32,754 nucleotides of DNA from Candidatus Thorarchaeota archaeon (GTDB lineage: Archaea; Asgardarchaeota; Thorarchaeia; Thorarchaeales; Thorarchaeaceae): contig QMYR01000005.1 of NCBI GenBank assembly GCA_003662765.1, positions 1 through 32,754 on the forward strand, read 5' to 3'. Shown here one piece after another: positions 21,244 to 32,754 of this stretch (positions within the stretch are counted from its first letter, which is position 1; the number at the start of each line of letters is the position of its first letter). Both the position numbers and the translations under genes were made by a program. The notes beneath the pieces were generated by a model. That model saw only the letters and a program-made list of their open reading frames with translations, was not told where the DNA came from and searched no databases.

Positions 21244-21348
21244 ATGATGAACCACATCCTCAGTGAGGAGGTCCGGCACAGACTGATACTGTTCGTGATG
21301 CGAATGGGTGATTTTCAACTGGATTCGGCTCATGAGCAATCAACTTGA
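21244..21348 (+). CDS. Possible 34-residue leader ORF upstream of pcna
   Basis: An ATG at 21244 opens a frame of 34 codons (starts MMNHILSEEVRHRLILF) whose stop lies 14 bases before the pcna ATG, directly ahead of the pcna ribosome binding site. No family is recognised. The expected start site of the nearby TATA element falls slightly downstream of this ATG, which counts against it. Confidence 0.2.
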   Translation: MMNHILSEEVRHRLILFVMRMGDFQLDSAHEQST

Positions 21349-21362
21349 ACGGAGGAGCAGAC

Positions 21363-22118
21363 ATGTTTCACGCGACCCTTGATAGTACCAAGACCTGGAA
21401 ACAGATAGTGGATGCCCTTGCCACTCTTCTGACAGAGGTCAACTTCGTGATATCGGAAACCGGAATCTCGCTATGTCAGCTCGACTCGTCGAAAGCAGCA
21501 ATGATTGACCTCAAGCTCCCAGCGGGGGTATTCCAAGAATACACTTGCAAGGGCGAGCATGTTGTCTGTCTTGGTGTGGACGAGCTGGTCAGGATTAGCA
21601 AGAGAATGGCCGGTGATGACAGACTGGAGTTCAGCCTCGACGAGAAGACGCAAAGATTCGAGATTCGAATGATTGGCCAAGCTGACAGAAAGTTCAGTCT
21701 GATGCTCCTGACACCGCCGGACGAGGAGAGAAAGAGCAAGCCAATGCCATATGATGTTCGTGCGGAGATGTATGCGAACGCGTTCAAGCAGGCAGTCAAG
21801 GACATTGGGGTGGTTTCGGGGCACATCAAGATTCATGCAGACAAAGAGTCCCTGACCTTCACCGGCGAGGGCGGCATTGGTGAGGCCCAGGTCGTTCTCA
21901 AGATAGGCGATGAGTCACCATTGTATGACCTTCAGATGGAGAAACCGGCCACCGCAATGTACTCGCTCAGCTATCTGTCAGAGATCTCAAAGGCGATGTC
22001 AAGCGACAGTCTTGTGCTCCAGTTTGCGACAGACAAGCCGATTCAGATGGAGTTCTCTGTCGCCGAGGGCGGCGCTATCAAGTTCATTCTCGCCCCGCGG
22101 ATTGAGCGGAGGAGATAG
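21363..22118 (+). CDS. pcn: Sliding clamp PCNA
   Basis: PCNA is the processivity clamp for replicative polymerases and a platform for FEN1, ligase and others. The 251-residue length and both clamp domains fit: an N-terminal FHATLDSTKTWKQIVDALATLLTEVNF, LCQLDSSKAAMIDLKLP, an interdomain loop near residues 115-130 (PDEERKSKPMPYD), and the C-terminal PIQMEFSVAEGGAIKFILAPRIE that helps bind partners. The ATG at 21363 follows GGAGGAG at the normal spacing; an upstream in-frame TTG (21345) would overlap that site. The primase and GINS genes follow. Confidence 0.97.
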   Translation: MFHATLDSTKTWKQIVDALATLLTEVNFVISETGISLCQLDSSKAAMIDLKLPAGVFQEYTCKGEHVVCLGVDELVRISKRMAGDDRLEFSLDEKTQRFEIRMIGQADRKFSLMLLTPPDEERKSKPMPYDVRAEMYANAFKQAVKDIGVVSGHIKIHADKESLTFTGEGGIGEAQVVLKIGDESPLYDLQMEKPATAMYSLSYLSEISKAMSSDSLVLQFATDKPIQMEFSVAEGGAIKFILAPRIERRR

Positions 22119-22234
22119 AAACCGTATTCAGAAGAAGAAAGCAGAGGTGGATGGACCTCACTCCGTCAGTGGGGAGTCCGCAGAGAAGGGGCCCCAGTCC
22201 TCATGTATAGAGTCCATCGGGAGCTGTCACCGTA

Positions 22235-23617
22235 ATGTCCTCAAGAGAACGGGAGAAACGGCAGAAGTTCCTACGCCTCATGTTCCAGCAGTACTACAGA
22301 AACCACGCTGCCGACATCGACACCCCTGACAGACTCCACATGCGAGAGTTCGCCTTGGAAACATGGGAGTACACTTGGCGTTGCACACGCCGGGCCGAAA
22401 CAGATGCCTCGGGTCAGACCGTATATGTGGGTTGTGGGAGAAAGGGAACTGCAATTCAAAGACCATCTGTCTGCCCCGTGTGCAACTCGCCCACAGTTAC
22501 GTCCACAAACTGGTCACGGCATCTTGGCTTCCGGACTGCAAAGGCCATGAGATCTGAGCTTGCAGCACGGGCCCCACATAGCGTCTATCACTCTGCTGCC
22601 TTCTACAACATCCCAGTAGCAAGAGACATGCAGGAGAAACAGTGGCAGGGCGCCGAGCTTGTCTTTGATATCGATGCAGACCACCTAGATGCACCCTGTA
22701 CGCAAGAACACGACAGCTGGGTGTGTGCGAATCCGAATTGCATGAAGACAGGTTGGGGAGAGCCTCCGGAACAGGGGTGCCCTTCGTGCGGTGGACTGGA
22801 GTTTCATAGACGAAAGTGGATCTGTGACAGATGTATGGACGACGCCCGGCGAAACACCCTGCGTGTCTACGATGAGTTCTTAGTGGGCGACTTTGGGATT
22901 GATTCCGACCAGATTGTCATCAATTACAGCGGGCATCGAGGATATCACATCCGTGTCAGGGATCCCCGCGTCTTCAAGCTAGACTCTGCGGCACGCGTCG
23001 AGATAGCCCATGAGATCACGGGTGTCGGTTTCGATGGGAATAGCGTTGTTGGAACCACACTGAACATTCCTCAAGCTCCTGCGCGGAGCCTTGCCGGATG
23101 GGGGGGTCGTGTTGTAGACGCCATCGTGAACTTGATACGGAATATCGACTCGTATGAGGGAGGGCAGCATTGGGTTTCGCGACTGAGAAGAAACAGGGAA
23201 GCTATCATTGCCGGACTGTTGAAGAACCCGCCCGAGTTCTGGAGGGGCGCAGGCATAAGTGTGAAGTCGTGGAGAGAGATAGCCACAGTCGCTGTGGCCA
23301 TGTACGGTGGCAAGATAGATGTGCCTGTGACTCATGATGTTCACAGGGTAATAAGACTCATCGGAAGTATCCATGGCAAGACCGGTTTTGTCGTTGCGAA
23401 ACTCACGAGAGAATCAATTGAGGACTTCGACCCATTTGCAGATGCACTTGCCTTTGGCGCGGATAATCTGCGTGTCAGGGTGCTGGGTGGTCTATTGGAG
23501 GTGCCAAGGTTTCGGATTGGTGATGAGTTATATGGGCCCTACGGCGACGAGGTCGTTGACCTTCCTATGAGTGCTGCCATGTTCCTGTTATGCAAGGGGG
23601 TTGCAGTTCTTGGCTGA
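22235..23617 (+). CDS. priS: DNA primase small (catalytic) subunit PriS, with extra Cys-rich insert
   Basis: PriS makes the RNA/DNA primers for replication. The catalytic DxD is D145-I-D147 in ELVFDIDADHLD, followed by the zinc region (CANPNC...CPSC...CDRC), the SGHRGYHIRV motif that holds the nucleotide, and the DVHRVIRLIGSIHGKTGF strand-helix with the conserved Arg and His. The protein is 460 residues, longer than most archaeal PriS (about 330-410). Part of the extra length is residues 45-92, an insert with Cys50, Cys67, Cys80 and Cys83, which could bind a second zinc. The stop overlaps the TTG start region of the GINS gene. No PriL is visible in the window. Confidence 0.93.
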   Translation: MSSREREKRQKFLRLMFQQYYRNHAADIDTPDRLHMREFALETWEYTWRCTRRAETDASGQTVYVGCGRKGTAIQRPSVCPVCNSPTVTSTNWSRHLGFRTAKAMRSELAARAPHSVYHSAAFYNIPVARDMQEKQWQGAELVFDIDADHLDAPCTQEHDSWVCANPNCMKTGWGEPPEQGCPSCGGLEFHRRKWICDRCMDDARRNTLRVYDEFLVGDFGIDSDQIVINYSGHRGYHIRVRDPRVFKLDSAARVEIAHEITGVGFDGNSVVGTTLNIPQAPARSLAGWGGRVVDAIVNLIRNIDSYEGGQHWVSRLRRNREAIIAGLLKNPPEFWRGAGISVKSWREIATVAVAMYGGKIDVPVTHDVHRVIRLIGSIHGKTGFVVAKLTRESIEDFDPFADALAFGADNLRVRVLGGLLEVPRFRIGDELYGPYGDEVVDLPMSAAMFLLCKGVAVLG

Positions 23618-24224
23618 ACTGAACTATGACAACATACGACGCATCTGGGAGAAGGAAATCAACTCGGAAGAACTTCAAGACCTAGATGATCTGACTATAG
23701 GGAAAATGGCAGAATATCTGTCGCACGTGAGGCTTGCTCTCACAGAAGTGCCAGCTGACAACAACCTGCAAGTAGAGATTTACACACGAGAGATTGAGAA
23801 TCTCGAGTACATGTTGACGGACCTCCTCAAGATTAGAATGAGAAAGATACTGGAAGCCGCACTTGCACAACAATCCCCTGCTGGGGTGATGACCATTGCA
23901 GAGGAGGAGTTTTACAATAGGGTTTCACGTGGAGTCAGTGCTCACGCCTCCTTCTTGGAATCCGTCCTCACCGGCAGCGTGTCCGTTGACACAGAGGTGG
24001 AGAGAACGACCGGTGGCGTAGCGGCCACAGATAATGGTGGTATGGAGTATGTGACCGTGATGTTCACACGGCCTATTGATACACCATTCATAGGACTGGA
24101 TGAGAAGACATATGGACCATTCGAGAGGGAAGATGTGGCTACAATCCCAGTTGCAAATGCGCAGGTGTGGCTACGTGATGGCACGGTCGTCAGGGTGGTC
24201 GCACAAGATGTGGAGCGCGATTAG
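23610..24224 (+). CDS. GINS complex subunit (Gins51/Gins15 type)
   Basis: GINS joins MCM and the Cdc45/RecJ-like factor in the archaeal CMG helicase. The 204-residue protein has the all-helical A domain first (NYDNIRRIWEKEINSEELQDL, then EIYTREIENLEYMLTDLLKIRMRKIL) and a small beta B domain at the C-terminus (VTVMFTRPIDTPFIGLDEKTYGPFEREDVATIP), the A-B order of Gins51/Sld5-like subunits. A low-complexity linker (residues 125-145) separates them. TTG 23610 overlaps the priS stop and gives the normal N-terminus; upstream in-frame starts add a Cys-rich extension that looks spurious. Confidence 0.88.
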   Translation: MAELNYDNIRRIWEKEINSEELQDLDDLTIGKMAEYLSHVRLALTEVPADNNLQVEIYTREIENLEYMLTDLLKIRMRKILEAALAQQSPAGVMTIAEEEFYNRVSRGVSAHASFLESVLTGSVSVDTEVERTTGGVAATDNGGMEYVTVMFTRPIDTPFIGLDEKTYGPFEREDVATIPVANAQVWLRDGTVVRVVAQDVERD

Positions 24225-24740: not shown

Positions 24741-24793
24741 ACAGGGCCTCTCAGAGCGAGCGAGAGGCGTTGTCGGCCGCCTGTTTTTCTGAA

Positions 24794-24805
24794 GCTTTTA
24801 ATACT
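24794..24805 (+). promoter_or_regulatory. TATA box of the hdr operon
   Basis: GCTTTTAATACT preceded by TGAAGC (BRE-like) lies 57-68 bp upstream of the hdrC ATG. It is the only good promoter element before the redox operon, whose later genes overlap or abut. Confidence 0.55.
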
Positions 24806-24861
24806 GGCACGAATGTTGCAGTTCCGCCTAGCCAGACGGCGTCCGCAAAGGTGTGACGACG

Positions 24862-25404
24862 ATGACAGAAACCGATGAGAAGGCTGGACCGCCGGTCACC
24901 TTAGTTGAGCCAATAGACATGTCGAAGCTGAATCGGGACTTTCGCCGAGAGATTCAGAGCATGCCTGACGGTGATGAGCTGAGTGCTTGTTTTGCCTGTT
25001 CCACTTGCACAGCGGCCTGCCCCATTGCAAACCAATGGAAGTACAAACCGCATCAACTGATTCGCATGATTCTATTGGGAATGCGAGAAGAGGTGCTTAC
25101 GTCTCGAGAGATATGGGAGTGCCTGACTTGTTTCCAGTGTCAGGAACGCTGCCCTCAGAATGTCAGGGTGACCGACATTCTGTTTGACTGCAAGAACCTT
25201 GCAGCAGAGGAGGGACACGTACCAGAGAACATCTTGGGGCTGGCCAAGGAACTGCTGGAAAAGGGGCAGCTCTATGTTGTCACAGCCGACTGGGAGAGAG
25301 AAGACCTTGATCTTGAGCCCGAGGTTCCAGGACTCTCCACAGACGAGTTCAAGTCCATCCTGAAGGGGACGCGTACTGGCAGGCTTGTGGGCGGTGATCA
25401 GTGA
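24862..25404 (+). CDS. hdrC: Heterodisulfide reductase subunit C (HdrC-like)
   Basis: HdrC is the iron-sulfur subunit that passes electrons from HdrA to the catalytic HdrB. In 180 residues it has two [4Fe-4S] motifs: C43-x2-C46-x2-C49-x3-C53 followed by Pro, and ECLTCFQCQERCP around residues 86-98. The family's helical MILLGMREEVLTSREIW lies between them. No membrane span is present, so it is the soluble type. ATG 24862 is chosen over GTG 24853; GGTG precedes both. It is the first gene of the operon and is immediately followed by hdrB. Confidence 0.92.
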   Translation: MTETDEKAGPPVTLVEPIDMSKLNRDFRREIQSMPDGDELSACFACSTCTAACPIANQWKYKPHQLIRMILLGMREEVLTSREIWECLTCFQCQERCPQNVRVTDILFDCKNLAAEEGHVPENILGLAKELLEKGQLYVVTADWEREDLDLEPEVPGLSTDEFKSILKGTRTGRLVGGDQ

Positions 25405-25405
25405 G

Positions 25406-26272
25406 ATGCCGACATACAACCTCTACATGGGATGCAGTGTCCCAGCAAACTACCCCAACTACGAGGCTGCCACGCTGAAGGTCGCAGAAGCACTGGGAAT
25501 GGAACTCATCTATATGGAGGGAGTGGGATGCTGTGGCAGCCCGAATCTGAGGGCCATCGACTACTTCGGTTGGCTATTGGTCAATGCTAGGACGTTGGCG
25601 ATAGGTGAGAAGACGGGACATGATATCGTCACGCCATGCAATGGCTGCTTTGGCTCCTTGAAAGATGTCCTCTATCACCTCAAACATGACGAGGAAGACA
25701 TGAAAAAGGTGAATCAGGAGCTGGAGAAGTTCGGACTTGAGTTAAAGGGGACCGTGAGGGTCAGACATGTCATCGAGGCCATGTATACCGACATAGGTAT
25801 CGAGGAGATCGAGAAGAAAGTCACGCGACCTCTAGACGGTGTGAGGATTGCGATACACTATGGGTGCCATCTCCTGAGACCGGCTGACGTGACAGAGGTC
25901 ACACCCGATATCTTCGACGAACTGCTTCGTGTCACGGGGGCCACTGTTGTCGAGTATCCACTCTGGAAACAGTGCTGTGGTGCCACCGTCCTGCCGGTGA
26001 ACGAGCCTCTTGCGGTACGACTCGCACGGGACAAACTCAAGTCGATAAAGGATGCTGGTGCCGAGTTCATAATGGTCGTGTGTCCGGCCTGTGGAAACCA
26101 GCTCGACCTTCAGCAATTTGGGATTAAAGACACGTATGGAGAGGAGTACAACCTGCCTGTTCTGTTCTATCCCCAGATTCTCGCGTTGGCAATGGGAATG
26201 AGCGAAGATGACGTTGGACTAAGCATGAACCGGGTCCCAGCGGATCCGATACTTGATCATCTCACGGGATAG
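25406..26272 (+). CDS. hdrB: Heterodisulfide reductase subunit B (HdrB-like)
   Basis: HdrB holds the active site that splits a disulfide (CoM-S-S-CoB in methanogens; unknown here). The 288-residue protein has two CCG domains. The first has GCSVP, GVGCCGSP and PCNGCFGSL; the second has YGCHLLRP, KQCCGATV and CPACGNQL. All cysteines for the two non-cubane [4Fe-4S] clusters are present, so it should be catalytically competent. ATG 25406 is one base after the hdrC stop. A methanogenic substrate is not implied, since no methanogenesis gene is visible. Confidence 0.93.
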   Translation: MPTYNLYMGCSVPANYPNYEAATLKVAEALGMELIYMEGVGCCGSPNLRAIDYFGWLLVNARTLAIGEKTGHDIVTPCNGCFGSLKDVLYHLKHDEEDMKKVNQELEKFGLELKGTVRVRHVIEAMYTDIGIEEIEKKVTRPLDGVRIAIHYGCHLLRPADVTEVTPDIFDELLRVTGATVVEYPLWKQCCGATVLPVNEPLAVRLARDKLKSIKDAGAEFIMVVCPACGNQLDLQQFGIKDTYGEEYNLPVLFYPQILALAMGMSEDDVGLSMNRVPADPILDHLTG

Positions 26273-26289
26273 GAGAGGTGAGGCAGGAC

Positions 26290-27540
26290 GTGTCGGATCC
26301 GGTACTCATCATCGGAGCGGGCGTTGCAGGCCTGACCGCAGCAGTGGAGCTGGCCGACTCGGGCGTTAGGGTCGTGCTAGTGGAACAGAAGACGACAGTT
26401 GGTGGGAACGCACTTGATCTCTACAAGGCGTTTCCAACCGATGACTGTTTCTACTGTTTCGAGAGTAACAGGGACAGACCAGGCATTCGAAAGTGCTTCT
26501 ACAGGAGTGCTCTTCTTGATCAACCGAACATCGAGCTTCGAATCAATACGACTGTCAGCGAGATCTCTGGTGAACCCGGCAGGTTTGAAGTCAAGCTTGC
26601 CATAGGACCACAATATGTTGACCCCATCAAGTGCATAATGTGCGGCATCTGCATGAAACACTCGAATGCATTCGTTTTGATATCTCCGCAGTGCCAGCCA
26701 CAGGCTGTCGTCTACGATCCGACCAGAGCTGATGACGGCGTCCAGCGAGCAGCCGAGGAGTGCCCAACAAGGGCAATCAATCTGGACGCCAAGCCGGCAG
26801 AAGAAACCATCACCGTGTCCGACATCATCGTTGCCACAGGCTATCATGAGATGAAACCTGTCAACATGGACGAATACGGGTATGGGAAGTATCCCGACGT
26901 TGTGACTCAACTTGAACTCGCAAAGATGCTTGACCCCAATGGAGAAACTGGGGGTGCACTTCTAAGACCGTCTGACGGTGCGCCAGTCAGCCATGTTCTC
27001 ATGGTTCAGTGCGTGGGAAGCCGCGATGAGAACCACTACCCCTATTGTTCGAAGATCTGTTGTGTCTTCGCATTGAAACATGCAAACATCATTGCAATGG
27101 AACGTGAGAACATAGATGTCAGCGTTGTCTACATGGATATCCGTACCTATGACAGACACGAGCGATACTATCGTGATGCTAGGGTTGCAGGGGTGAATTT
27201 CATCCGTGGGCGCGTGCAGCGACTTGCCCCCTCTTCAGACGGTGGACTAGACGTGATTGTCTATGATTCTTTACTCGACAGGTACCTCAGACTCCATACG
27301 GACCTGTTTGTGCTCTCCTCTGCGCTGGAGCCACCGGAGGGAGGAAAGGGGATAATCAAGGCACTGGGACTGAAGTCCGCAAGTGGATTTGTCGCCCCCC
27401 ACGACCTCGCTCCCGAGGAAACTGTCGTGGCGGGTGATCATGTCTATGCATGTGGTACGGCTTTGGGTCCAGCCGAGGTTCCTGAGAGCGTGACTCAAGC
27501 GAGAGCGGTTGTTTCGAAGATACTTCAGAGCAGGAAGTGA
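26290..27540 (+). CDS. Short HdrA-like flavoprotein
   Basis: The 416-residue protein corresponds to the FAD-binding (thioredoxin-reductase-like) part of HdrA. It starts directly with LIIGAGVAGLTAAVEL (GxGxxG, residues 9-14) and contains the HdrA insertion FPTDDCFYC (Cys53, Cys56, then Cys69), a CIMCGIC ferredoxin-like segment (near residue 115), VMVQCVGSRDENHYPYCSKICC and VVYMDIRTYD. It lacks the N-terminal CxC domain and the C-terminal ferredoxin and MvhD domains of full-length HdrA. Those parts are in the next gene. GTG 26290 has GAGGTGA at 8 bases; GTG 26278 overlaps it. It probably pairs with the next protein. Confidence 0.85.
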   Translation: MSDPVLIIGAGVAGLTAAVELADSGVRVVLVEQKTTVGGNALDLYKAFPTDDCFYCFESNRDRPGIRKCFYRSALLDQPNIELRINTTVSEISGEPGRFEVKLAIGPQYVDPIKCIMCGICMKHSNAFVLISPQCQPQAVVYDPTRADDGVQRAAEECPTRAINLDAKPAEETITVSDIIVATGYHEMKPVNMDEYGYGKYPDVVTQLELAKMLDPNGETGGALLRPSDGAPVSHVLMVQCVGSRDENHYPYCSKICCVFALKHANIIAMERENIDVSVVYMDIRTYDRHERYYRDARVAGVNFIRGRVQRLAPSSDGGLDVIVYDSLLDRYLRLHTDLFVLSSALEPPEGGKGIIKALGLKSASGFVAPHDLAPEETVVAGDHVYACGTALGPAEVPESVTQARAVVSKILQSRK

Positions 27541-27547
27541 TCAAAGG

Positions 27548-29701
27548 ATGGGCGAGAAGTCAGCCGTGGTGTTGTGCAATTGTGGGAATACTCTGAAGCT
27601 TGACTACGACTTCCTGCAGACAGAGATCGGAAAGATGGATGGGGTTTCGTCGGTCATACTCCTCGAAACACTGTGTCAGGAGAACGGGCTCGCAAGGCTG
27701 AAGGACATAATCGAGGAGGCGGGTGGACGTGTGGTGATAGCGGCCTGTACCGCCCAGAAGCTTCGGCCGAGAGTCAACTATAGGATAGCTCAGGCTGGAA
27801 CAGACACATCCATGATTCAATATGTCAATATTCGTGAACACTGCGCTTGGGTGCATGAAAACACCGATGAGGCAACACGGAAGGCTCTCGACATGGTGAG
27901 GGGAGGAGTTGCGCTCGCAAACTTGGCAACCCCCTTGACAGTACAGACAAAGAATGTCAAGAAACATGTTACTGTAATCGGCGGTGGGATTGCAGGTATC
28001 GAGGCCGCCCTCAGCCTATCGGGGTTGGGATACGATATCACGTTGATTGAACTGAGCGACAGGCTGGGAGGCCATGTTGCAAACCTCCCTGTCGTTGCAC
28101 CTACAGGCAAGTCGGGTAGAGAAATACTTGACAGTCGGCTCAAGTCTTTGGAGAATGACAAGAGAATCACAGTGATGACCAGAACGCAAGTGAAGTTTGT
28201 TGAGGGTGAGATGGGAAACTTCACCGTTCACTACATCTGTGATGAGGAGGAGGGCACTCTTGATACATCTGCAGTAGTGATTGCCACAGGCTTCAAAGAG
28301 TTCAAGCCTACGATGATGGAAGAGTACAGGTACGGCAAGAACCCTGATGTGGTCACGCAATACGAACTGTCGGAAATGTTGACGAATGAAGATCTGAAGA
28401 GACCCTCAGACGGCGGACCGATCAAGGAGGTCGTCATGGTTCAGTGTGTTGGGAGCCGCTCGGAAGAATACAAGCGTGACTGCAGCAAGCTGTGTTGCAC
28501 CTTCGCCATAGACAATGCTCTTGAGATCCTCAAGAGGGTTCCCGATGCCCGTGTCAGGATTGTCTACATGGACATTAGAGTGCCGTTTGAACACGAGATT
28601 ATCTACAAGGAGTCGAGAGAGAAGGGAGTAGACTACATCAGAGGCCGGGTCGGCATGGTGTGGGAGGAAAACGGACAGACGCATGTCCGCATCTATGATT
28701 CACTTCTCGACCAGTACTTCGAAACCACACCTGACCTCGTCGTGTTGTCAGCTGCAGTGTTGCCCCCGGACGGACTATACGAGCTGTCAGAGAGCCTCGG
28801 ATATGCGATCGAGAGTGATGGCCACATCAAGGAACTCTACGGCAAGCTGCGACGAAACGAAACTCGCCGGAGAGGTGTTGTTGCTGTTGGGGCCGTCACG
28901 CGGCCACAGTTCGTCCATGAGGCTGTCACGGAGGCACAGGCAGGAGCACTCGTGATCCATAATGAGTTACAGGGTGGGGAGATAGAAGCCGTGGCACGCG
29001 GTGCGGTCTTGAATGTTGATGATTGCGTGGGTTGTAGCCTATGTGCCCAGCAGTGTCCTCGCGGCGTACCAATTATGATTGAACAGACAGATGCTGAAGA
29101 GAGCACCGAGAAGTTCCTGTTCAAGGCGTCTATCGACACCCTGAATTGCCATGCATGTGGTGTGTGTCAGAGCCTTTGCCCCTCGGGTGCCACCCAGCTC
29201 AACTTTCTCAGCAACGAGCAGCTGTGGGCCCAAATCGCGGCCACACTTCAAGATGCTGGGCCGGACTATCCAATCACACTCTGTTTCCACTGTGAGGAAT
29301 GTGCGGTGTCCACGATTGACATTGTGGGAATACGCAGGATGCAGTACCCCGCCAGCACCCGATTCATTCCCGTCCCTTGCGCAGGGCGCGTGAGTACAAT
29401 CGACATTCTAAAGGCCCTTGAACACGGTGCCAGTACAGTCATGATAGCGGCCTGCGAAACAGACCGCTGTCACATGGGTGGCACTGGAAACGAGGTCGCA
29501 CAGTCACAGGTAGATGTTGCTCGCGACATCCTCAACGCAATCGGCTGGAGGGGCGAGAGAGTGGACATGTTTCGAATGTTCAGTGCTGAGCCTGAGAGAT
29601 TCACAAGGGCCGTCGAGGAGATGGTCAGGCGAGCAAGGGAACTTGGGCCCACGCCCGTACACAGCGGCACGGCTGGAAGATGGATGGAGGTGACAGAATG
29701 A
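27548..29701 (+). CDS. hdrA: HdrA fused to an MvhD-like domain
   Basis: HdrA carries the bifurcating FAD in heterodisulfide reductase complexes. The 717-residue protein has an N-terminal domain with CNCGNTL (Cys10, Cys12), FAD motif VIGGGIAGIEAALSL, VMVQCVGSRS...CSKLCC, and two [4Fe-4S] motifs (C493/496/499/503 and C534/537/540/544). A C-terminal MvhD-like domain follows (CFHCEECA, VPCAGRVS, IAACETDRCHMGGTGN). MvhD normally links HdrA to a hydrogenase or other electron donor, so the fusion marks this as the electron entry point. The FPT-DC cysteines of usual HdrA are missing: the region reads VVAPTGKSG. The start is ATG 27548; the stop overlaps the next ATG. Confidence 0.92.
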   Translation: MGEKSAVVLCNCGNTLKLDYDFLQTEIGKMDGVSSVILLETLCQENGLARLKDIIEEAGGRVVIAACTAQKLRPRVNYRIAQAGTDTSMIQYVNIREHCAWVHENTDEATRKALDMVRGGVALANLATPLTVQTKNVKKHVTVIGGGIAGIEAALSLSGLGYDITLIELSDRLGGHVANLPVVAPTGKSGREILDSRLKSLENDKRITVMTRTQVKFVEGEMGNFTVHYICDEEEGTLDTSAVVIATGFKEFKPTMMEEYRYGKNPDVVTQYELSEMLTNEDLKRPSDGGPIKEVVMVQCVGSRSEEYKRDCSKLCCTFAIDNALEILKRVPDARVRIVYMDIRVPFEHEIIYKESREKGVDYIRGRVGMVWEENGQTHVRIYDSLLDQYFETTPDLVVLSAAVLPPDGLYELSESLGYAIESDGHIKELYGKLRRNETRRRGVVAVGAVTRPQFVHEAVTEAQAGALVIHNELQGGEIEAVARGAVLNVDDCVGCSLCAQQCPRGVPIMIEQTDAEESTEKFLFKASIDTLNCHACGVCQSLCPSGATQLNFLSNEQLWAQIAATLQDAGPDYPITLCFHCEECAVSTIDIVGIRRMQYPASTRFIPVPCAGRVSTIDILKALEHGASTVMIAACETDRCHMGGTGNEVAQSQVDVARDILNAIGWRGERVDMFRMFSAEPERFTRAVEEMVRRARELGPTPVHSGTAGRWMEVTE

Positions 29702-31971
29702 GCAACGCAGCCACGCAGGAACGGCACATTCCTCCGAAACGCCAACGGATGCTGGACATGATTATGGTCCTCGGGGGCCTCAAGGAAGAGGCAGCAATTC
29801 CGCTGAGCCGCGTGAATGAGGAGATTAGACTACTCAAGGAAGAGCTGTCACCTCTCACAGCAGAGATTGTTGCATACCCGGAGAAGTACTTCCAAGAGTT
29901 TCTGACCGCAGTGGAGAGAGCAGGAATCATAGATCAGATCACGGACCCGTCTATCCTCTCAGAGGCCATCAACAATCTCGAGGCCGCCCTTAAGACGGGG
30001 GAGTCAGGCTCCCTGTCAACACTTCTTGGTCTACTTCGGGAGGCCGAGGCCAAACATCAAGATATGAGTGAGAAAACAGAGCCCCAACTTGATGCAGTCG
30101 ATGTTGCTAAGGTCATTGCGCCTCTGCCAGCGATCATCAGTCAGATAGAAACGGTCGTCGCCGAGTACGAGAAACAACGTGCCGCAGACGCGGAGGCTGC
30201 CGAAAATGAGCTGAAGGAGATAACAGAAATATTCGCCAATCTCGCCAACCGTGCAATGGAGGACCCAGAGAATGTTCTTGCAGAGCTTCAGAAACTGGGG
30301 TCCAAGACACGGTATGGGCCGTTTCTGAGAGCGGCAGCTCAATTGAAGCGAGGGCGACGGGAGGGCCGTATCCCTGATGACAGGTTTGCAATGCTCGTTG
30401 CCGAGAACATGGTCACCGAGATGCGCCGCGGCATCATCATGTTCATACTCAATCATATGGGATCAAGAACGGTTCCCCAGCTGGCTGAGCTCATGAAGAC
30501 AACCCCAGCCCTAGTCCAGCGCGCGATAATCACCATGATTCAGCGTTCTGATGTGGAGATAGTGGGTGTGGAGGGTGATGCACCAGTCTTTGCGCGTGTC
30601 CTAGGAGCGGTACCGGAGAGCACTCTTGCAATCAAACGAGTAGTGCAACAGTTCAGAAGCCTCGTGAAGACCGTTGATGAAACGACTGCCAAGATCCTCA
30701 ACGACGCTCTGAGTCGACTGTCCTCCGTATTGGAGCGGCTGCAACTGCTTGGAGAATACGACGAAACTAGGTTGGCTGATAGCGTCAAACAACTACGCGA
30801 GCTTGCGGACAAGGGTACAGAGGCTGCACTCAGCACTCCTGCCTCGATTGATACGGAACAACTGAAACTCTTAATATCCGCAGGTCTAGAGGCCTTTGCC
30901 CGATTCAGACTCAAGATCACGCTTGAGAAGGGCCCCAACCTTGTGAAGGGCACAAACGTATACGGCGAGAAACTTGACCCCGAGGTCTATGCACGCATAA
31001 TGGACACGTATCTGGACAATGAGATTGAGAGAGGCACAATTCTACTACTAATCAGAGAGCATGGGGCCATGACGGTCAAGGATCTTGCTGAGCGGACTGG
31101 AATCCCACCCGATCGCGTGCTGCAACACCTCCTAAGAATGAAACGCGATGAGCTGTTGACCATTGCAGGTGAAGCGCATGGGTACGTTCTGTATGATGTG
31201 CCAAGGACACCAAATGAGGCAGAGGTGGCCGTGCAGACGGTGACGGCTCTTGCATACGACCTTGCCCCTGCCATGAAAGAACTGGAAACCCTTGTCGAGA
31301 AACTCACTCCGAAGGACATTGGCAGACTTGTCAACACCATCGAAATCTTCTCCAAGTCGCGGGACAAGATGGCCAAGCTGAGTGTGGGCGGAGCGGTGGT
31401 GGCAGAGGACATTCTCACCAACATTGAGGGGAAAATCAAGTCCGCACTTGCCATGGCATACAGGACACGGGCCCGCATACCCAGTACGCGCCCCAAAGTG
31501 ACTATTGACGACCTCATGGATGTGGATGTGCCGACTGTCATGGATGAGTACCGCGACATGATGGGATATGCGCCGCTCCTCGGCTTCGGAACAATCAAGT
31601 GGGATCACTCCAAGTGCCTTGGCTGCAAGTCCTGTGAACTGGCATGCCCGGAGGATGCCATTTTCCTGAAACCAGTCATTGAAATCCCACAGTTCTTTGA
31701 GTTCAGTGAGGAGTCGCTGGAGAAGCTACCTGCTAACAAGGCATTGTTCTACCGGACCGTACGCAGTCTTGCAACGCGTCGGCCGACGGAGAATATCATG
31801 TTGCAGCATGAGGCACCGGGATTCGGGCACATAGAGGTGGACCTTTGGTTGTGTGTGGCATGCCGAACATGCGTGAGGAGATGTCCGGGCCCTGATGAGG
31901 GGGCCCTCGAGCTAGAACTGAAGTGGAGCCTGCCTGAGGTCGTCAGGCACATAGCAGCGGAGGCCGAATGA
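29698..31971 (+). CDS. Duplicated winged-helix protein with two C-terminal [4Fe-4S] motifs
   Basis: The family is not recognised as a whole. The 757-residue protein opens with acidic coiled-coil helices (1-210). Two similar modules of about 200 residues follow, each with a helical lead-in, a helix-turn-helix (RRGIIMFILNHMGSRTVPQLAELM from 243; ERGTILLLIREHGAMTVKDLAERTG from 444) and a long helical tail. The C-terminus carries C640-x2-C643-x2-C646-x3-C650 and C719-x2-C722-x2-C725-x3-C729, a bacterial-ferredoxin pattern for two [4Fe-4S] clusters. GGAGGTGA lies just upstream and the ATG overlaps the hdrA stop, so it is tightly coupled to the Hdr complex. It could be a redox-sensing regulator or an electron-transfer scaffold. 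Confidence 0.8.
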   Translation: MSNAATQERHIPPKRQRMLDMIMVLGGLKEEAAIPLSRVNEEIRLLKEELSPLTAEIVAYPEKYFQEFLTAVERAGIIDQITDPSILSEAINNLEAALKTGESGSLSTLLGLLREAEAKHQDMSEKTEPQLDAVDVAKVIAPLPAIISQIETVVAEYEKQRAADAEAAENELKEITEIFANLANRAMEDPENVLAELQKLGSKTRYGPFLRAAAQLKRGRREGRIPDDRFAMLVAENMVTEMRRGIIMFILNHMGSRTVPQLAELMKTTPALVQRAIITMIQRSDVEIVGVEGDAPVFARVLGAVPESTLAIKRVVQQFRSLVKTVDETTAKILNDALSRLSSVLERLQLLGEYDETRLADSVKQLRELADKGTEAALSTPASIDTEQLKLLISAGLEAFARFRLKITLEKGPNLVKGTNVYGEKLDPEVYARIMDTYLDNEIERGTILLLIREHGAMTVKDLAERTGIPPDRVLQHLLRMKRDELLTIAGEAHGYVLYDVPRTPNEAEVAVQTVTALAYDLAPAMKELETLVEKLTPKDIGRLVNTIEIFSKSRDKMAKLSVGGAVVAEDILTNIEGKIKSALAMAYRTRARIPSTRPKVTIDDLMDVDVPTVMDEYRDMMGYAPLLGFGTIKWDHSKCLGCKSCELACPEDAIFLKPVIEIPQFFEFSEESLEKLPANKALFYRTVRSLATRRPTENIMLQHEAPGFGHIEVDLWLCVACRTCVRRCPGPDEGALELELKWSLPEVVRHIAAEAE

Positions 31972-32064: not shown

Positions 32065-32754
32065 ATGATTGATTTCTCATTGACCGAGGAACAGAAGAAA
32101 CTCCAACTAAAGGCACGGGAGATTGCGCAGGAGTACATGATACCATATGCTCACTACTACGACAAGATAGGAGAATTTCCCTGCCCCATCATCGAAAAGG
32201 CATGGGAACCCGGACTCATGAACCTATGAATCCCAAAGGAGTACGGTGGACCCGGTCTTGGAGTGCTTGAGCAGTGCATTGTTGTTGAAGAGATGGCTGC
32301 CGGTTGTGCAGGGATGACCACCAGCATCTATGTCAACGGTCTCGGCGTCGAGCCCTCCTTGTAGCGGGAACGCATGAACAGAGGGAGAAGTATCTCAGAC
32401 CGTTGACAGAGGACCTCAAGTTCACCTCTTTCGCGTGCTCAGAGCTAGGCATGGGAAGCGATGTTGCAGGAATTCAGACCAGAGTGACACGGGACGGGGA
32501 CTACTATGTCATCAACGGAAGTAAGTTCTGGATCACAAGCGCTCCCTTTGCAGACAACTTTACAGTCTTTGCAACACTTGACCCCAAGCTGAGGTATGAG
32601 GGCCTCTGTGCATTCATCGTGGATGCTGATACACCTAGCCTCAAGGCTGGTCGACCCGTGGAGAAGATGGGGCATCGGGCCTCAACAACATCTGCAGTGA
32701 TGTTTCGTGACGTTAGAGTGCCAGCAGAGAATCTGCTGGGCAAAGAGGGGGATG
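32065..32754 (+). pseudogene. Acyl-CoA dehydrogenase, disrupted by in-frame TGA and a frameshift (cut by window end)
   Basis: The translation starts [21 protein letters not shown], a typical acyl-CoA dehydrogenase N-terminus. The family motif (GLMNL)-IPKEYGGPGLG is interrupted by TGA at 32227-32229. Reading continues in frame to NGLGVEP, then hits TAG (32362). The family sequence resumes one frame over from about 32355 (LVAGTHEQREKYLRPLTEDL), through SFACSE, the flavin-site YVINGSKFWIT and VPAENLLGKEGD at the window edge. The catalytic base region is outside the window. A one-base deletion near 32350-32358 plus the TGA implies a dead gene or two sequencing errors. Its place after the Hdr genes suggests a former or present link between fatty-acyl oxidation and that complex. 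Confidence 0.85.

Follow-up and report, generated by a model that had tools for sequence, protein, structure and literature searches.

Gene content of the hdr operon

The window analyzed here, a 32,754-nucleotide stretch of a Thorarchaeota contig taken at its full length, carries an hdr operon in which HdrC, HdrB, HdrA and HdrA:MvhD are followed by the gene that is the subject of this study, which we call the target.

24791-24807, + strand: promoter-like element (GAAGCTTTTAATACTGG) upstream of hdrC, recognized by conservation in 19 Thorarchaeota
24853-25404, + strand: HdrC, probable start ATG 24862 (TIGR03290 match under the cut-off; conserved order)
25385-26272, + strand: HdrB (TIGR03288, 4e-83, under the cut-off)
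26278-27540, + strand: HdrA, short form of 420 aa (NF040770/NF041778)
27509-29701, + strand: HdrA fused to MvhD, with the MvhD part at 29279-29647 (PF02662, 1.4e-33)
29698-31971, + strand: target gene, 757 aa, with two winged-helix modules and a two-cluster ferredoxin unit (ORF; full-length homologues)
32065-32754, + strand: acyl-CoA dehydrogenase homologue downstream of the target, with a broken frame and cut by the contig end

The target ORF runs from ATG 29698 to a stop at 31971 and encodes 757 aa; use of an alternative in-frame ATG at 29680 would add 6 aa. As originally predicted, the gene lies inside an hdr operon and is translationally coupled to an HdrA gene: its ATG (29698-29700) overlaps the TGA stop of the HdrA:MvhD gene (29699-29701) in a 4-base ATGA. 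Upstream of hdrC, a TATA-like box was the only strongly conserved stretch across 19 Thorarchaeota loci, and no operator was found there. The acyl-CoA dehydrogenase homologue downstream is intact in relatives; in the window its reading frame meets a TGA at 32227-32229 and shifts near 32355-32361, close to where the contig ends, which points to either a pseudogene or errors of assembly.

Directly upstream of the hdr operon (21345-24224) we recognized, by eye, PCNA-, primase small subunit- and GINS-like genes, and this replication-gene/hdr synteny is retained in most Thorarchaeota loci read. The window has a single PCNA gene, and some Thorarchaeota have a tandem pair (L022 746-2456, L025 737-2448 and L026 747-2387), with a primase-like gene and the hdr operon downstream in each case. 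The loss of hdrCB in locus L021 was only apparent, antisense ORFs having been picked there.

Architecture of the target protein

The protein divides into the following parts.

29698-30252, + strand: N-terminal all-helical region, residues 1-185 (AlphaFold helices; conservation)
30277-30627, + strand: module 1, residues 194-310, with the winged helix itself at about 227-300 (AlphaFold; hhalign matches with module 2 and with standalone proteins associated with Hdr)
30850-31212, + strand: module 2, residues 385-505, winged helix proper about 428-500 (Pfam, AlphaFold, Foldseek)
31216-31476, + strand: helical region, residues 507-593 (AlphaFold)
31486-31968, + strand: two-cluster ferredoxin unit, residues 597-757 (two related halves; PDB profile match)
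31615-31647, + strand: [4Fe-4S] motif 1, CLGCKSCELAC, residues 640-650
31852-31884, + strand: [4Fe-4S] motif 2, CVACRTCVRRC, residues 719-729

In profile-profile comparisons built from Thorarchaeota sequences alone, residues 194-310 matched residues 385-505 at E=2e-7. Upon addition of four distant homologues, residues 186-310 matched residues 385-505 at E=2.2e-13 with a score of 77, compared with a top score of 16.7 among 60 column-shuffled versions. The tails after the two modules (305-388 versus 500-600) had no detectable relationship by the same approach and were therefore rejected as part of the repeat, which is about 115 aa long and spaced at about 195-200 aa. The duplication first proposed from the sequence is thus real, but its core is about 115 residues and not the approximately 200 residues originally assigned to each module. 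Profile-profile comparison also revealed no relation between the N-terminal region and the winged-helix modules. A KRxRM motif in this region (residues 14-18) is kept in Thorarchaeota, while distant homologues retain the KR pair only.

AlphaFold2 predicted a helix-helix-helix-strand-strand winged helix in both modules, giving the three-helix core and two-stranded wing of the ArsR/MarR-like fold; the original prediction had placed a winged helix in each module. The fold of module 1 comes from the full-length model, which is of moderate quality (pLDDT 68, pTM 0.39). Module 2, which includes an NVYGE motif (residues 420-424), was modeled with a mean pLDDT of 88.5 from an alignment of 58 rows, and Pfam MarR_2, HTH_24 and HTH_5 exceed their curated cut-offs within it, at residues ~448-489. 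Foldseek matched RPC62 tandem winged helices, ArsR/MarR proteins and Zalpha domains, none at E≤0.001, although E-values above this level can occur with so small a fold; superposition on Zalpha 4kmf covered 63 residues with an rmsd of 1.5 Å (TM 0.89 on target length). Judged by sequence and predicted structure, the winged helices clearly derive from, or resemble, ArsR/MarR DNA-binding domains.

The winged helices contain no cysteines. All eight cysteines of the protein belong to the two CxxCxxCxxxC motifs of the ferredoxin unit, which had been recognized from the start as [4Fe-4S] motifs, and they are invariant across all aligned sequences, including the distant homologues L123-L126. This is the pattern of a 2[4Fe-4S] ferredoxin (Fer4), and all eight are predicted cluster ligands. 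The halves of the unit match each other at 3.6e-16 (hhalign), and its top PDB profile match is the polyferredoxin MvhB (9.4e-22). When the whole protein was searched against PDB sequences, only the ferredoxin parts were matched, and a Pfam search found no FlpD domain (PF02662) in the target, the preceding gene having one. In most other clusters read, the ferredoxin unit is an MvhD fusion or lies beside HdrA; where unfused, it is a small gene in or near the Hdr cluster. A ferredoxin motif matching target residues 632-659 is also present in a ~409-aa ETF-type ORF of Thorarchaeota (G019:C319:4471-5130).

Distribution of the full-length protein

The target gene is present in 36 of the 37 genomes of its Thorarchaeota family, the exception being a small, 52%-complete genome. 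A search for the same architecture beside hdrA elsewhere, as suggested with the original prediction, recovered full-length homologues with 20-24% identity outside Thorarchaeota: L123-L126, from four genomes that represent three other Asgard families. At every informative locus, in Thorarchaeota and in L123-L126 alike, the gene directly follows HdrA:MvhD. The order in L123-L126 is HdrA, HdrA:MvhD and target, then HdrC and HdrB, with one small intervening ORF in L124. At all of these loci the gene sits in an hdr operon with conserved order, as would be the case for an Hdr subunit.

A tree of 71 modules placed module 1 of the distant proteins with Thorarchaeota module 1 (100/99) and their module 2 with Thorarchaeota module 2 (99/96), and the MvhD fusions formed one group (98/91); the alignment has few columns and the tree some long branches, and we do not trust its finer relations. 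Because each module position forms one clade with its distant counterpart, the tree indicates that the two-module protein is old and predates the split of Thorarchaeota and the other three Asgard families.

An acyl-CoA dehydrogenase gene follows the target across the Thorarchaeota loci read and is missing from the hdr loci of L123-L126. We therefore ruled it out as a general, obligate partner. ETF genes, considered as a missing partner, were found in most Thorarchaeota genomes searched, away from the locus (on contig C83 in the present genome, for example).

The winged-helix module in other Asgard proteins

A profile search of Asgard archaea detected the module in 131 of 228 genomes. At 43 well-scoring loci, chosen mostly for genus spread and not by annotation, we examined the neighboring genes, and Hdr or MvhD genes lay beside the module or were fused to it in all 43. 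The module occurs as a C-terminal extension of MvhD (proteins of ~247-312 aa), as a standalone gene of 115-126 aa adjoining HdrA or MvhD, and within chains of 808 aa that combine HdrA, MvhD and the module. Hdr genes also accompany most of the weaker matches that retain the module's N-terminal helix; several of these matches are fusions with Fer4 and FrhB, the latter an F420-dependent electron-input domain. Such fusions lie beside HdrA in other Asgard families (L133 6454-7872, L135 4855-6363), and a 907-aa chain in L140 (3293-6016) combines the module with Fer4, FrhB and GltD. The stretch read contained no Hdr gene at L140 or at L138, the latter an MvhD-module fusion. Weak matches to little beyond the bare helix-turn-helix core (L141-L144) lie outside Hdr clusters and mark the edge of the module family.

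Some Thorarchaeota encode relatives of the target with a GltD-type flavoprotein inserted after TRYG, residue 207, as seen at five loci read (L035, L036, L037, L115 and L038). The insert comprises Fer4_20 and Pyr_redox_2 domains, with the NAD(P)-binding protein PRK12771 as top NCBIfam match; it substitutes for module 1 in L035, L036, L037 and L115 and sits before module 1 in L038. In methane-metabolizing archaea, HdrA itself has been described with an inserted GltD (PMC12054007), which makes GltD an accepted means of electron input to Hdr systems. Like the relatives of the target, type III HdrA from that work is an Hdr-system protein with an inserted GltD-type NAD(P)H module, whereas these relatives carry it in the winged-helix/ferredoxin subunit and not in HdrA. 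The second Rossmann motif also differs, being described as GXGXXG in type III HdrA and reading GXGXXA (GGGNAA) in the three variants that we checked.

Comparison with known systems

The target shares operons with MvhD/FlpD (PF02662), which links Hdr to hydrogenase or formate dehydrogenase, and in Asgard archaea its module is found most often at the C-terminal end of MvhD, as an extension. The target itself, however, has no FlpD domain, and to our knowledge known MvhD has no winged helix. The methanogen polyferredoxins MvhB and FwdF, electron relays associated with hydrogenase/Hdr or with Fwd, provide the nearest PDB profiles to the ferredoxin unit; the match covers the cluster motifs, and the target differs in having two clusters only, joined to winged and long helices.

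HdrA-MvhD fusions have been reported in Thorarchaeota and Lokiarchaeota (PMC11237513), as has MvhD adjoining HdrA in Asgard archaea (PMC11227280), in both cases with the winged helix unmentioned. Our literature search returned nothing relevant on a winged helix in an Hdr or MvhD context, and we found no Pfam or NCBIfam model or PDB structure covering the target architecture, which agrees with the initial view that no named family has this layout. Hdr complexes as such are well known; the winged-helix/ferredoxin subunit and the adaptor proposed below represent a new form of them.

A proposed docking and relay subunit

With the architecture, the duplication, the predicted fold and the strict linkage or fusion to Hdr electron-transfer genes established, we propose that the target is a dedicated Asgard-type Hdr subunit. 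We regard this as probable, with the winged helices serving to dock and the ferredoxin to relay electrons. MvhD has been described as a docking platform through which electrons from hydrogenase or formate dehydrogenase reach the bifurcating flavin of HdrA (PMC6085437). The target follows HdrA:MvhD, it carries a relay of its own, and its module is common to MvhD, FrhB and GltD chains, so that an adaptor is the most economical reading. The two winged-helix modules and the long helices would form a docking scaffold, and the C-terminal two-[4Fe-4S] unit would act as a polyferredoxin-like relay passing electrons to or from the MvhD/HdrA-flavin end. In general, the module would be an adaptor tying electron-input parts (MvhD, FrhB/F420H2, GltD/NAD(P)H or ferredoxin) to HdrA, having lost, or not using, DNA binding; the target would bear this adaptor twice, along with its own relay. 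It would associate physically with HdrA/MvhD, for which indirect support comes from proteins in which the module is naturally fused to HdrA-MvhD or to MvhD. Since an acyl-CoA dehydrogenase gene adjoins the target, acyl-CoA oxidation is a candidate electron donor, in the Thorarchaeota lineage only. We infer the direction of electron flow, just as we infer the donor in Thorarchaeota and the absence of DNA binding. Some observations sit less easily with a docking subunit: the winged helices are ArsR/MarR-like, and DNA binding by standalone forms of the module is still conceivable; AlphaFold gave only a moderate model of the full-length protein; and two module loci (L138 and L140) have no Hdr gene in the stretch read.

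The original prediction had left two options, a redox-sensing regulator that reads the Hdr complex and a helical scaffold in which winged helices have been turned to contacts between proteins. In the former, the ferredoxin unit would sense the redox state of Hdr and the winged helices would bind near the hdr promoter, in keeping with their ArsR/MarR-like sequence and fold and with the precedent of sHdrR, an ArsR-type repressor that is genetically linked to, and controls, Hdr-like genes in Hyphomicrobium (PMC12423496). That protein, however, is a small repressor of Hdr-like sulfur oxidation with two sensing cysteines (PMC12423496), whereas the target is a 757-aa protein translationally coupled to HdrA:MvhD. 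Its winged helices lack the conserved cysteine pair of sulfane-sulfur-responsive ArsR proteins, and this absence rules out a redox regulator whose winged helix carries cysteines. A regulator would also be expected to have a conserved operator near the promoter that it controls; only the TATA-like box is conserved in the 19 upstream regions, although a distant or degenerate operator could still exist. Surface positions of the recognition helix drift between families in the alignment with distant homologues. The module is fused to MvhD, FrhB and GltD, and some relatives have one copy swapped for a flavoprotein. The target winged helices are acidic (pI 5.5-5.7), which is weak evidence given that module charge varies across the family. 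A DNA-binding regulator is thus unlikely, and we give its redox- or cluster-sensing form little credence. Trigger enzymes of dual-function (PutA-like) type are known, and the target might be an Hdr subunit that also binds DNA once detached from the complex. Such a protein would draw on the facts backing each single function, yet it meets the same objections as the regulator, with nothing positive for DNA binding, and we consider it very improbable.

The scaffold option fared better, as it is supported by the Hdr/MvhD genes at all 43 loci and by the replacement of module 1 by a flavoprotein. A rival reading is an oligomerization scaffold, in which Hdr protomers would be held together by the winged helices, as dimers or in larger assemblies, and bridged by the ferredoxin, with no specific donor. 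Winged helices often dimerize, methanogen Hdr complexes form large assemblies with polyferredoxins, and the profile nearest to the ferredoxin unit is that of the polyferredoxin MvhB. The repeated fusion of the module to donor parts (MvhD, FrhB, GltD) nevertheless points to donor docking, and we find an oligomerization scaffold doubtful. It differs from the docking subunit only in the role of docking, and could be partly true alongside it.

Beyond the target itself, we see an even chance that, in Asgard archaea, a winged helix that once bound DNA became a general adaptor domain of electron-bifurcating Hdr complexes. A single type of module would then mark the subunits where electrons from MvhD, F420H2 (FrhB), NAD(P)H (GltD) or ferredoxin enter HdrA; the 757-residue protein would be its most elaborate form, with a module exchangeable for a donor enzyme in evolution. 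Energy conservation in anaerobes relies centrally on Hdr complexes. Among archaea, the Asgard group is the closest known to eukaryotes, and it has many hdr clusters with electron donors yet to be assigned; a subunit family recurring with each donor type would help to read which donor feeds which Hdr complex. The module also illustrates clearly how a fold for binding DNA has apparently been put to new use, here as a protein adaptor within electron-transfer machinery, and annotations as "HTH regulator" within Asgard hdr clusters are probably wrong.

Apart from the GltD insertions in relatives of the target, very large proteins (~1120-1134 aa) with a GltD-like domain adjoin hdr genes at several Thorarchaeota loci (L131 7211-10615, L105, L106, L107 and L117), and the one in L131 also has an HdrA-like part. 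These apparently represent another kind of Hdr cluster linked to NAD(P)H.
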